DNA from: Cyclonatronum proteinivorum
GTDB lineage: Bacteria; Bacteroidota; Rhodothermia; Balneolales; Cyclonatronaceae
Assembly (NCBI RefSeq): GCF_003353065.1
Contig: NZ_CP027806.1
Location: forward strand, 682,001-746,000
Reading direction: 5' to 3'
Length of the DNA stretch: 64,000 nucleotides
Shown here: positions 5,032 through 25,418 of the stretch, one piece after another
Layout of the letters: every line of letters begins with the position of its first letter
Position numbering within the stretch: position 1 is the stretch's first letter
Program-made: the position numbers and the translations under genes
Notes under the pieces: generated by a model
Told to the model about the DNA's origin: nothing
Seen by the model: only the letters and a program-made list of their open reading frames with translations
Databases searched by the model: none

Positions 5032-5079
5032 AACCCAAACCGGCATACGCCCCAAGCCCCGCTGCGCAGGCAGACATAG

Positions 5080-5172
5080 CTTTTTTATTTTTTGGGGGAA
5101 ATCCCGTGAGCATCACGGTCTTTCGTGGCAGATTAGCGTTCCCAAATCATAATTTGAATCCCTTGCTTTTTG
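5080..5172 (+). repeat. Dispersed intergenic repeat, copy 1
   Basis: This copy of the window's family of about 95 bp runs from CTTTTTTATTTTTTGGGGG through a CCGTGA-GCA-TCACGG dyad and CCCAAATC to CCCTTGCTTTTTGG. It begins 49 nt after the stop of the mscS-like gene and lies in the same sense. No reading frame runs through it. It matches copies at 12.9, 25.1 and 29.8 kb in the same orientation and at 8.1, 22.4 and 26.7 kb inverted. Confidence 0.7.
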
Positions 5173-8120: not shown

Positions 8121-8214
8121 CCCCAAAAGCAAGGGACCCGTCTTAGGTTTGGGGGCTCGGAGCCTGCCCCGTTTCTCCTGATGTTCACGGAGTTTCCCCC
8201 AAAAAAAACAAAGC
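8121..8214 (-). repeat. Dispersed intergenic repeat, copy 2 (inverted)
   Basis: Read on the minus strand, this copy starts GCTTTGTTTTTTTTGGGGG, contains ACTCCGTGAACATCA and ends CCCTTGCTTTTGGGG. It begins 54 nt past the stop of the minus-strand gene at 8268, so it has the same sense and almost the same spacing as copies 1, 3 and 5 have to their upstream genes. It fills much of the 7865-8267 gap, which otherwise shows no gene. Confidence 0.7.
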
Positions 8215-12835: not shown

Positions 12836-12903
12836 GTACCAGTAACAGATTGGCGATAGCCAAAAGTGCACTCAATCACCCTGATCCTGACCTCCGGGGT
12901 GCG

Positions 12904-13001
12904 CCCGCTTTTTATTTTTTGGGTAAAACTCCGAGAGCATCAATGCTTACGTAGCAGATTATAAGCCCCGGACCTAAGACAGGCTCCTTGTTTTTTTTAG
13001 T
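12904..13001 (+). repeat. Dispersed intergenic repeat, copy 3
   Basis: It starts CCCGCTTTTTATTTTTTGGG, has ACTCCGAGAGCATCA, and ends with CCTAAGACAGG and CTCCTTGTTTTTTTT. It is in the sense of the upstream antitoxin gene. The rest of the 12836-13183 gap shows only A/T-rich promoter-like sequence ahead of the YfcC-type gene. Confidence 0.7.
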
Positions 13002-20921: not shown

Positions 20922-22106
20922 TCAATCCCCCCACTCAAATAAACTCATCTGTATGGGGGCTGTTTCAACAACGGTTTCTGGTGGTTTAAAAGGCTCGTTC
21001 AGCAGTTTTTGCAGATCAAACTTCACGAACAGGTTTACCCGAAGAAAGGCAACCATGTTGGACAAACACCAGCCATAGGTTGCGATGGCCTTCATGTACT
21101 TCAGGATCAGGATCGTAATCATTGCTGTCCAAATCTGAATAAGCACGGCATTGGTCGTGGTACCCAGAAATGATTTGATTTTGAGTAGCTGCTTGATGTC
21201 TTTGAAGAACTGTTCGATATCCCAACGGGCTCTGTACAGCTCACTGATGGTGTTTGCTGTCCAGGAAAACTGGTTGGTGATCAGTTCGATGGTTTGATCT
21301 TTTTCGGCGTCATAAGCCACCACCCGGCGTAATTTAGCAGGATAGTTCTTATAGCTTTCAGGCTTGCTCAGTTCGACATATTCATCGATGAGTATGTGCT
21401 GATGGCGGTTGTCTGGCAGAGGTTTTTCGGCGAGCCGCTTGAACTGGACAGATTTTTTAAGGCGTATCACAAAATAGCTGCCCTCGGTTTTCCATCGGTA
21501 CAAGGTCGGAAAATCAACATAAGCGCGGTCGGCAACGACTACTGAATCCGCTGGCAACGACAATGTTTTGGCAACAGTGGAGTCGTGCGGCTTGCCATCG
21601 GTCATCTGTATAAAAACCGGCAGGCAACCGTCATAATCCAGCAGGGTATGTAGTTTTATGGCGCCCTTCTTTTTGCGGAATTTGGCCCAATCGTACAGAC
21701 CCAGACATAAACTGATGGTCGTTGAATCCAACAGCAGGATCTTGCTTTTGATCCTGAAGCGGGTTTGTCGGAAACGCCCCATTGCAGCCAGTTTCTTCAT
21801 CATCACAAAGTAGTAGTCTTTGAAAAGGCCCCACTCGCGATGCTTATTTTGATAGGAAAGCGAGGATTTACAAGGTGCTCTGTTGACACCTAAATGGTTA
21901 AGATTGCCACTGGAGGATTTTAACCCGTTACAAACATCTCGCAGGGAACTTAACTTGGAGAACTGGCAAAACAGCATAGTCACCAAATGAGTCCAGCTGG
22001 TAATACCTTTAACATGTTTGTCTGAACTGTATTTTTTAACCAGCTTTTTGAAGCCTGGTCGGTCCAGGGTCTGCATAATCTGCGCAAATAACGTTACATT
22101 GGCCAT
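20922..22106 (-). CDS. IS4 family transposase (DUF4372 N-terminal domain)
   Basis: The 394-residue DDE transposase is intact. The N-terminal DUF4372-type domain (TLFAQIMQTLDRPGFKKLV ... WTHLVTMLFCQFSKLSSLRDV) precedes the catalytic core. The first Asp is in LLLDSTTISL, the second in VVADRAYVDF, and the Glu in the IS4 signature YRARWDIEQFFKDIKQ (Y-2-R-3-E-6-K). No frameshift or stop interrupts it, so it may still be active. Confidence 0.95.
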   Translation of the reverse strand: MANVTLFAQIMQTLDRPGFKKLVKKYSSDKHVKGITSWTHLVTMLFCQFSKLSSLRDVCNGLKSSSGNLNHLGVNRAPCKSSLSYQNKHREWGLFKDYYFVMMKKLAAMGRFRQTRFRIKSKILLLDSTTISLCLGLYDWAKFRKKKGAIKLHTLLDYDGCLPVFIQMTDGKPHDSTVAKTLSLPADSVVVADRAYVDFPTLYRWKTEGSYFVIRLKKSVQFKRLAEKPLPDNRHQHILIDEYVELSKPESYKNYPAKLRRVVAYDAEKDQTIELITNQFSWTANTISELYRARWDIEQFFKDIKQLLKIKSFLGTTTNAVLIQIWTAMITILILKYMKAIATYGWCLSNMVAFLRVNLFVKFDLQKLLNEPFKPPETVVETAPIQMSLFEWGD

Positions 22107-22382: not shown

Positions 22383-22477
22383 CAAAAAAAGCAAGGGACC
22401 TGTCTTTGATTTGGGGGTTCTGATCTTCCACGAAAGACCTTGATGTTCACGGAGTTTTCCCCAAAAAAAGAAAAAGC
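22383..22477 (-). repeat. Dispersed intergenic repeat, copy 4 (inverted)
   Basis: On the minus strand it reads GCTTTTTCTTTTTTTGGGG, then ACTCCGTGAACATCAAGG, TCTTTCGTGG, and CCCAAATCAAAGACAGG, ending CCCTTGCTTTTTTTG. It is the closest match to copy 5 at 25.1 kb. It is antisense to both flanking genes, unlike most other copies. Confidence 0.75.
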
Positions 22478-22622
22478 GGGCTTGGCAAGGCAGCCGGTTG
22501 CAGGCTCACTTTTTTTGGAATGAACCTGCCCAAAAGTGCCCGAAAACCGATATGTTGCGGCTTTGCTTGGCGGGCGTGCTGCGGTGCGGGTAGCGGTTAA
22601 AACGCACGGATCGTAATCGCGG

Positions 22623-22856
22623 TTAACCCGCATTATTCACCAAGAAATTTTCTTGCTGGCAAGGCGAAGCTGAAAACTCGGCGGAGGGGTACCTAAGTAC
22701 CCTGAGCATGAGTTTTCAGCTTCAACGCCGCCAGCGGGGAAATTTCGCAGCCTTTACACCACACCCAAATTTGGGCTTCAAGTGTTTTTCGTTAAGCCCA
22801 ACTTAAACTATTATTTAGCATATTAATCCTGTTTAATTGTGAATAATGCGGGTTAA
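22623..22856. mobile_element. MITE-like palindromic element with perfect 18-bp terminal inverted repeats
   Basis: The ends TTAACCCGCATTATTCAC (22623-22640) and GTGAATAATGCGGGTTAA (22839-22856) are perfect inverted repeats bounding 234 bp with no gene. Inside, 22644-22746 forms a long imperfect palindrome. Its outer arms are GAAATTT/AAATTTC, then GCTGGC/GCCAGC, a perfect 14-bp inner arm GAAGCTGAAAACTC/GAGTTTTCAGCTTC, and GGGTAC/GTACCC at the tip. No transposase is inside, and no clear target duplication is seen outside. The right end abuts the oligopeptidase gene and supplies an artificial upstream ATG at 22846. Confidence 0.75.
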
Positions 22857-22914: not shown

Positions 22915-25014
22915 ATGAACGAACTGAACCAACATCGCAAACACAGCTCCGGACCCGCTTTTCCGGAAGGCATTCAGCCGCCGGTTGCGCGGCAGATTCC
23001 GGTTGAACTGAGCATGCACGGGCACACCCGCATCGATCCGTTTTTCTGGATGAAAGACCGCGATAATCCGGCTGTAATCGACTACCTGAAGGCCGAAAAT
23101 GATTATCTCAAGGCCATAACGGGGCACACGGACGCCTTTCAGGAAGCGCTGTTCAGCGAGATGCGGGCGCGGATTAAGGAAGATGACAGCTCGGTGCCGT
23201 ATTTCCTGAACGGCTATTTTTACTACACCCGCTACGAAGAAGGGCAGGAGTATCCGATCTATGCCCGGCGTTTTGAGACCATGGAATCCGATGAAGAAAT
23301 CATTCTGAACGTAAATGAGCTCGCCGAAGGGCAGTCGTACACTTCGGTTGGCGGCGTTTCCGTTAGTAATGACGCCCGCCTGCTCGCTTTTTCGGTCGAT
23401 CATGTGGGGCGGCGGATTTACACTATCCGGTTCAAAAACCTGGAGACCGGTGCGTTTCTCGAAGATGAAATCCCGGACGTGACCGGTAATCTGAGCTGGG
23501 CCGCCGATAACGCCACCATCTTCTACAGCAAACAGGATCCCCAAACCCTGCGCTCGTATCAGATATATCGTCACCGCCTTGGCAGCAATCCGGCAGCGAA
23601 CGCGCTGGTGTTTCAGGAAGATGACGAGACCTTTACCACCTACGTGAAGCGCACGAAATCGCGCGCGTACATCATGCTGGTTTCGTACAGCACGGTCAGC
23701 ACCGAGTACCGTTTTATCCCCGCAGATAAGCCGACGGCTACCCCTGAGCTGCTGCAGGCGCGGGCACGGCACCACGAATATTTTGCGGACCATTTCGGGG
23801 ATCATTTCTACATCCGCACCAATCACGAAGCGCAGAATTTCCGGCTCATGCGCGTGCCGGTCGCTGCGCCGGGCATGGCGAACTGGGAGGAAATCATCCC
23901 GCACCGACCGGATGTGCTGCTCGAAGGCATTGACATATTTGCCCGGTACCTCGTGCTCAGTGAAGTGCAGAACGGCCTACCGGTGATCCGAATCCGCGAG
24001 TGGGAAAGCGGCGCGGAGCACTACATGGCTTTTGATGAGCCCGCCTACCTCGCCTATACGACGACCAATCTCGCGTTCGATACGCCGGTGCTGCGCTACG
24101 GCTACACCTCCCTCACTACGCCGAACTCCATCTACGAATACAACATGGAAACCCGCGCGCATACGCTCCTGAAGCAACAGGAAGTGCGCGGTGATTTCAG
24201 CCGGGAAAACTACGTGACGGAACGACATTTCGCTACCGCTGCCGACGGCACCCGCATTCCGGTGTCGCTCGTGTACCGCAAAGGGCTGCGCAAAAACGGG
24301 CAGAATCCGCTGCTGCAGTACGGCTACGGCTCCTACGGCTACAGCATGCCGCCGACCTTCAGCAGTGCGCGCCTGAGTTTGCTCGACCGCGGATTCGCGT
24401 TTGCCATCGCGCACGTGCGGGGCGGCGAAGAGATGGGGCGCGCGTGGTATGAGCAAGGCAAGCTCGAAAACAAGATGAACACCTTTACCGATTTTATCGC
24501 GGTTTCCGAATATCTGATCGCGCAGCGCTTCACCAACCCCTCACAGCTCTACGCGATGGGCGGCAGCGCCGGCGGCCTGCTTGTGGGCGCGGTCATGAAC
24601 CTGCGGCCCGACCTCTACAACGGCATTGTCGCGCAGGTCCCCTTCGTGGATGTGGTCACGACCATGCTCGACGACAGCATCCCCCTCACCACCGGCGAGT
24701 ACGACGAGTGGGGCAATCCCAACGACCCGCATTTTTATGAAATCATGCTGGCCTACTCCCCCTACGATCAGGTCAGCGCGCAGGCTTACCCGCACCTGCT
24801 CGTGACCTCCGGCCTGCACGACTCGCAGGTGCAGTACTGGGAGCCGACCAAATGGGTGGCCCGCCTCCGCGAGCGGAACACCTCGGAAAACGTCATCCTG
24901 CTCAACACCAACATGGATGCCGGTCACGGCGGCGCCTCCGGACGCTTTCAGCGCCTGTGCGAAGTCGCCATGGAATACGCCTTCCTGCTCGAACTCGAAG
25001 GCATTCGCAGCTAA
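22915..25014 (+). CDS. ptrB: Oligopeptidase B (S9 family serine peptidase)
   Basis: This is a prolyl-oligopeptidase family enzyme of about 699 residues that cleaves short peptides after basic residues. The N-terminal RIDPFFWMKDRDNPAVIDYLKAEN block precedes a seven-bladed propeller (about 80-400) and then the alpha/beta hydrolase domain. The nucleophile Ser is in AMGGSAGGLLVGAVMN, the Asp region around VTSGLHDSQVQYWEPTKW, and the His in DAGHGGASGR. There is no signal peptide, so it is cytosolic. The frame is open from 22846, but that ATG lies in the terminal repeat of the MITE-like element. The ATG at 22915 is the likely start. A dispersed repeat follows 70 nt after the stop. Confidence 0.93.
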   Translation: MNELNQHRKHSSGPAFPEGIQPPVARQIPVELSMHGHTRIDPFFWMKDRDNPAVIDYLKAENDYLKAITGHTDAFQEALFSEMRARIKEDDSSVPYFLNGYFYYTRYEEGQEYPIYARRFETMESDEEIILNVNELAEGQSYTSVGGVSVSNDARLLAFSVDHVGRRIYTIRFKNLETGAFLEDEIPDVTGNLSWAADNATIFYSKQDPQTLRSYQIYRHRLGSNPAANALVFQEDDETFTTYVKRTKSRAYIMLVSYSTVSTEYRFIPADKPTATPELLQARARHHEYFADHFGDHFYIRTNHEAQNFRLMRVPVAAPGMANWEEIIPHRPDVLLEGIDIFARYLVLSEVQNGLPVIRIREWESGAEHYMAFDEPAYLAYTTTNLAFDTPVLRYGYTSLTTPNSIYEYNMETRAHTLLKQQEVRGDFSRENYVTERHFATAADGTRIPVSLVYRKGLRKNGQNPLLQYGYGSYGYSMPPTFSSARLSLLDRGFAFAIAHVRGGEEMGRAWYEQGKLENKMNTFTDFIAVSEYLIAQRFTNPSQLYAMGGSAGGLLVGAVMNLRPDLYNGIVAQVPFVDVVTTMLDDSIPLTTGEYDEWGNPNDPHFYEIMLAYSPYDQVSAQAYPHLLVTSGLHDSQVQYWEPTKWVARLRERNTSENVILLNTNMDAGHGGASGRFQRLCEVAMEYAFLLELEGIRS

Positions 25015-25083
25015 ACTGCTCGCCTGTTCCCGGTGCCGCTTCGTGCAGGATGGGGCTGAAACCCGGCGTTATAGGCATTTCCG

Positions 25084-25177
25084 GCTTTTTTATTTTTTGG
25101 GTAAAACTCCGAGAACATCAAGGTCTTTCGAGGCAGATCGAATACCCCAAATCAAAGACAGGTCCCTTGCTTTTTGT
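25084..25177 (+). repeat. Dispersed intergenic repeat, copy 5
   Basis: It runs GCTTTTTTATTTTTTGGG, ACTCCGAGAACATCAAGG, TCTTTCGAGGCAGATC, CCCCAAATCAAAGACAGG, and CCCTTGCTTTTTG. Internal pairings TTTGGG/CCCAAA and GTCTTT/AAAGAC are possible. It is in the sense of ptrB. The remaining 25178-25418 stretch shows only A/T-rich sequence that presumably holds the TA promoter. Confidence 0.75.
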
Positions 25178-25418
25178 GGGCAGGCCAAGCTTCTGGTGGG
25201 GGAAGGGGAAGGTTGGGGTTGACCTAAGTTTACTCGTTAATGGATGGACTCTTGTCACCGATTCTCAGGATTAGCTAATAACCTTGGTGTGAGCGAGAAA
25301 AGAGGGATTGAAACAGATGTGATTTTACCCGGAACTTGATTTATTAGCGGGCTAATGGATATTATCTTGCTTAGAAGATGACAGTATCAAAACTTAAACC
25401 ATATCTCCTGGCTTCAAA

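Follow-up and report, generated by a model that had tools for sequence, protein, structure and literature searches.

The question raised by this locus is what a short stretch of DNA with inverted ends and a long internal palindrome is doing upstream of a peptidase gene in Cyclonatronum proteinivorum, which transposase brought it there and what has preserved its hairpin. We analyzed it within a stretch of 64,000 nucleotides (positions 682,001 to 746,000 of contig NZ_CP027806.1), called the window here and numbered from its first letter. The reading that we hold with good confidence is that this is a non-autonomous 226-bp MITE, probably inserted by an IS1380-family transposase, and that the hairpin it carries is conserved as part of the mobile element.

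The original prediction, made from the sequence of the window, described a 234-bp element with perfect 18-bp inverted ends and no gene inside. The sequences at 22623-22640 and 22839-22856 are indeed exact inverted repeats, in a window in which 0.06 matches to the end would be expected at up to three mismatches, but not all 18 bp belong to the terminal repeat. In other copies, the outer 4 bases covary as direct repeats (e.g., CTAA/CTAA and TTAG/TTAG). Because these 4-mers vary together in this way, the outer TTAA is a target-site duplication and the element itself is the 226 bp from 22627 to 22852, bounded by terminal inverted repeats that match at 14 of 14 bp (CCCGCATTATTCAC). We found no gene within it, neither a transposase gene nor any other open reading frame of note. 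The features of the locus are as follows.

22623..22626, no strand: target-site duplication, left copy (TTAA); the flanking 4-mers are direct repeats in 61 of 87 copies
22627..22640, plus strand: left 14-bp terminal inverted repeat, CCCGCATTATTCAC, from end comparison
22641..22748, plus strand: conserved bulged hairpin, found by covariance model R1 with its best match on the plus strand; paired part ~22644-22746
22666..22679, plus strand: 5' arm of the perfect 14-bp stem, an inverted-repeat match
22710..22723, plus strand: 3' arm of the perfect 14-bp stem, an inverted-repeat match
22749..22838, plus strand: A+T-rich variable tail with the recurring motif CACCCAAATTTGGG, from the alignment of 87 copies
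22839..22852, minus strand: right 14-bp terminal inverted repeat, from end comparison
22853..22856, no strand: target-site duplication, right copy (TTAA), from the flanking 4-mers of other copies
22918..25014, plus strand: prolyl oligopeptidase family S9 gene (ptrB-like), with 22918 as its likelier start

The ends are by no means peculiar to this locus, since the genome (4.29 Mb in one contig) holds 234 matches to the end sequence, compared with 1 for a reversed-pattern control, and in the genome-wide list, a CTAA at one end is matched by a TTAG read on the other strand at its partner, which makes the two direct repeats. For flank comparison and alignment, we extracted 87 paired copies and found that the flanking 4-mers were identical in 61 of them, compared with a mean of 18.7 and a maximum of 30 when partners were shuffled. 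The duplications were mainly TTAA (26), CTAA (19) and TTAG (6), with a few others, and 52 of the 61 fit YTAR. The copies fall into a 226-bp class (32 copies) and a 254-bp class (14 copies), the latter having one added 28-bp module (GGGAATCGCTTCGCTCGGTGC...) just upstream of the tail motif; the window copy is without it. Two insertions have an empty counterpart in the same genus: homologous sequence runs uninterrupted through the L202 site in G005 and G004 and through the L200 site in G005. With roughly 100 copies, target duplications, empty sites and, as described below, an IS family with ends of the same kind, the MITE-like reading of the original prediction is borne out.

Copies sit between genes, often near gene ends, and across the genome neither their position nor their orientation follows the genes in any consistent way; in tandem gene pairs, the two orientations were found at 11:9 and 7:4. 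At L202, the insertion hit the upstream gene at its stop codon. Among the own-genome copies L189-L288, 13 neighboring gene ends (with open reading frames called mechanically) coincide exactly with the YTAR duplication; YTAR contains TAA or TAG, so such insertions leave the stop codon intact. Copies that lack the hairpin resemble in situ deletions between short direct repeats (TTCAC and GAAATTT).

It had also been suggested that the hairpin lies in the leader of the ptrB-like gene and may affect its expression, and this idea did not find support. The formal longest reading frame of that gene does start within the MITE, at an in-frame ATG in its right end (22846), but the MITE ends 65 bp upstream of the likelier start, neither a terminator-like site nor a forward promoter-like site was found within the element (hence we rejected the hairpin as an intrinsic terminator), and copies genome-wide show no common orientation. 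The orthologue in G005 (L409) is 84% identical and starts with a lipoprotein-like signal peptide, which the window gene lacks; DNA homology between the two loci extends upstream only to a point shortly after the gene start, which is downstream of the MITE, and the G005 contig has too little upstream sequence to bear on any part played by the MITE.

Two other repeats lie close by. Upstream of the MITE, at 20922-22106 (minus strand), is a DDE_Tnp_1/DUF4372 transposase gene that belongs to a repeat reaching ~22207; the genome has at least three copies of this gene, and its closeness to the MITE looks incidental. A second, unrelated dispersed repeat of ~90 to 120 bp has the core CTCCGTGAACATCA(A/C)GGTCTTTCGTGGCAGATC...CCCAAATCAAAGACAGGTCCCTTGC after a T-rich run, with five copies in the window (22383-22480, 25081-25178, 12903-12998, 8125-8214 and 5079-5171) and further copies in the flanks of other loci of this genome; we saw neither inverted ends nor an Rfam match for it.

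The interior palindrome is a hairpin of ~103 bp, as predicted, with perfect 14-bp arms. Folded as RNA it reaches −66.9 kcal/mol (z = −11.1 against shuffles), and the whole element folded as single-stranded DNA gives z = −8.95. Alignment of thirty hairpins, nine from this genome and the rest from relatives, yielded a consensus of 39 pairs, 23 of which show two-sided compensatory changes. For each of the five covariation measures, the observed value was above that of every one of 500 shuffles (two-sided cells, for instance, numbered 101 compared with 26.4), and when the partner was slid by 1 to 3 columns, the proportion of paired cells fell from 94% to at most 49%. Few columns vary less than the unpaired bulges (CAAGGC, CAACG and parts of CGGAAG and TGAG). 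With covariance model R1, the hairpin was detected in 27 of 98 genomes (this one included) and 12 of 33 genera; among 394 genomes sampled across the phylum, it was found only within the order (14 genomes). Wherever the ends can be read, the hairpin almost always lies inside an element bounded by terminal inverted repeats: most of the 30 loci examined are of this kind and 212 to 255 bp long, and the remainder run off a contig or have ends that have diverged. Genomes with a single copy carry it at unrelated loci; we rejected a shared locus, the only common neighbor being an ECF sigma factor/FecR gene pair in differing arrangements. A Bacteroidales MITE with the same ends (L158:1235-1326) gives a weak R1 match (25.8 bits) and keeps CAAGGCG and CAACGCAG; this is possibly an echo of the hairpin, and we regard it as a lead only. 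A search of Rfam returned three matches, all far below the gathering score, which places the hairpin in no known Rfam RNA family.

What, then, preserves this structure? Among the copies in this genome, mean identity to the consensus is 96.4% in the hairpin, 85.7% in the tail and 98 to 99% in the ends; copies were found in part by their ends and by the initial bases of the hairpin. Copies with decayed duplications are more diverged than those with intact ones by 2.5% in the hairpin and 2.4% in the tail, with a wide 95% interval for the difference (−3.6 to +3.8%), and we saw no sign of selection after insertion in this comparison. Because the hairpin and the tail erode at about the same rate in decayed copies, selection on spread is the more likely, and the data hint, in a suggestive rather than decisive way, that constraint acts on which copies multiply and not on a host function. 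A private-mutation test pointed the same way, but we dropped it when simulation showed its sensitivity in the tail to be ~10-fold below that in the hairpin; a nearest-pair comparison was set aside as biased, its pairs being picked on total distance, which is dominated by the tail. We put forward, tentatively, that the hairpin may be a cis-acting structured signal, in folded DNA or RNA, that non-autonomous derivatives of DDE transposons need in order to spread. Under such a reading, an internal structure might be read in addition to the terminal repeats, order-wide and perhaps as far as the Bacteroidales element L158, a possibility that we hold no more firmly.

Compensatory change could also be mimicked by a passive palindrome in which one arm corrects the other or template switching occurs, as palindromes are known to do. 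In keeping with this, several copies carry deletions between short direct repeats, and in one, L207 (G000:C1:969200-970500), the hairpin center runs in the opposite sense to that of the other copies read, as template switching within the palindrome could produce. Arm-to-arm correction should, however, erase mismatched bulges, yet the bulges belong to the most invariant columns over 12 genera, and we consider this account unlikely. We find it still harder to credit that the hairpin is an RNA structure serving the host in processing, stability or attenuation and selected at many loci. A role of this kind has been proposed for some MITEs that join mRNAs, covariation around fixed bulges resembles a functional nucleic acid structure, and the positions of copies near gene ends would suit it; against it stand the similar loss of hairpin and tail in old copies (within the wide interval given above), the lack of an orientation preference, the unrelated loci of single-copy genomes and the absence of an Rfam family.

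The preferred reading, a cis-acting part of a mobile element, requires a transposase. Searching for these ends around a transposase gene in the same genome, as had been proposed, gave a negative answer: its single contig holds six full IS1380 copies, all with ends CCTRAATCCGTGA, which differ from those of the MITE, so we rejected them as the partner and found no IS1380 element with matching ends there. IS1380 came to light as the likely partner family on a viral contig, L311, where CTAA-CCCGAATTATTCAT is found upstream of a 446-amino-acid transposase (PF13701, 1.8e-160); the opposite end fits less well (12 of 14 positions), with the flank off by one base. In order-level relatives, CCCGGATTATTCAT is found at two IS1380 loci: at L330 on the one side present in its contig, and at L331 at both ends of a truncated copy whose flanking 4-mers differ. 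The ends of these three loci (CCCGGATTATTCAT or CCCGAATTATTCAT) are one or two positions off those of the window element, and none of the loci examined was an intact IS1380 with exactly CCCGCATTATTCAC at both ends.

We also searched nine plasmid IS1380 loci for ends de novo. Inverted repeats matching at 14 of 14 positions (CCCGGATNTYTCAY) with CTAG duplications bound L365 and L368, and 13-of-14 ends with a CTAG duplication bound L364; L360, L361 and L367 gave only 10 of 14 with YTAR duplications, in a scoring that favored duplications, and L362, L363 and L366 gave no clear ends. The plasmid duplications (CTAG, CTAA or TTAG) are of the same YTAR type as those of the MITE. The MITE thus shares with the IS1380 family (PF13701) ends of the type CCCGNAT(T/A)(A/T)TTCAY and 4-bp YTAR target duplications but differs in having no transposase gene and in its interior, which is unrelated to those of the IS copies seen; outside the ends, no common sequence was recognized. 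From the shared ends and targets, we infer that an IS1380-type transposase most likely moved the MITE in trans. Since none of the six own IS1380 copies has matching ends, the family is probably stranded here, its cognate transposase absent or lost. In relatives, hairpin-bearing elements (L397 and L405) have ends CCNGNATTTCTCA in place of CCCGNATTATTCA, resembling those of the plasmid IS1380 element L368; the ends of MITE and IS may have diverged together.

We give very little chance to mobilization by another transposase family such as IS701 (PF13546), which is known for 4-bp YTAR targets and has PF13546 matches in this genome: none of 13 PF13546 loci was bounded by MITE ends, the only end matches there belonging to separate nearby MITEs, whereas IS1380 loci do carry ends of the MITE type. 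A literature search found no paper joining IS701 with YTAR.

Among species-representative genomes, at least 119 stretches contain the 18-mer end, with Bacteroidota, Mariprofundia, Nitrospira, Planctomycetota, gammaproteobacteria and others among the matches listed. Many of these matches mark elements that are bounded by terminal inverted repeats, are ~120 to 300 bp long and have lineage-specific interiors. We considered as partners the open reading frame families that recur beside the cross-phylum ends and rejected them, as they are mostly ordinary genes with no bounding transposase. We found no paper on the end sequence itself, and the portions of the literature seen on IS1380 together with MITEs described no IS1380-mobilized MITE.

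In kind, the element is ordinary. Like other bacterial MITEs (e.g., those of Anabaena sp. 90; PMC3542288), it is short, gene-less, multicopy, mostly intergenic and hairpin forming, with inverted ends. It differs from bacterial MITEs in general in that a likely partner family is identified by ends and targets and in that its interior holds an unusually well-supported structured module, in which pairs covary around bulges that stay fixed in many genera. Correia elements (NEMIS) of Neisseria are likewise abundant intergenic MITEs with hairpin potential, but they have other ends and a TA duplication, and their hairpin arises from the ends rather than from a separate interior module. REP/RAYT elements are also bulged palindromes dispersed between genes; a REP is a single palindrome without inverted ends or duplication, whereas the window element has both, of the DDE type, and we rejected that assignment.

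Taken together, these results suggest a model in which an IS1380-family transposase (DDE type, PF13701) would recognize ends of the form CCCGNATTATTCAY and insert the element into a YTAR target, here TTAA, duplicating 4 bp. The family has multiplied to roughly 100 copies and is probably stranded here, with no matching IS1380 found in the genome. Spreading copies would have had to keep the hairpin, much like their ends, and as folded single-stranded DNA or RNA it would presumably act in cis in mobilization, its control or survival of the element; of this function we are less sure than of mobilization in trans. The analysis links a widespread and apparently unnamed group of bacterial MITEs to IS1380, a tie that is relevant because IS1380, with its PF13701 transposases, serves as the prokaryotic outgroup to eukaryotic piggyBac (PMC10813416). 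A MITE with a conserved, covarying, bulged structure in its interior, and not just in its ends, makes a role for such a hairpin in DDE-type mobilization directly testable.
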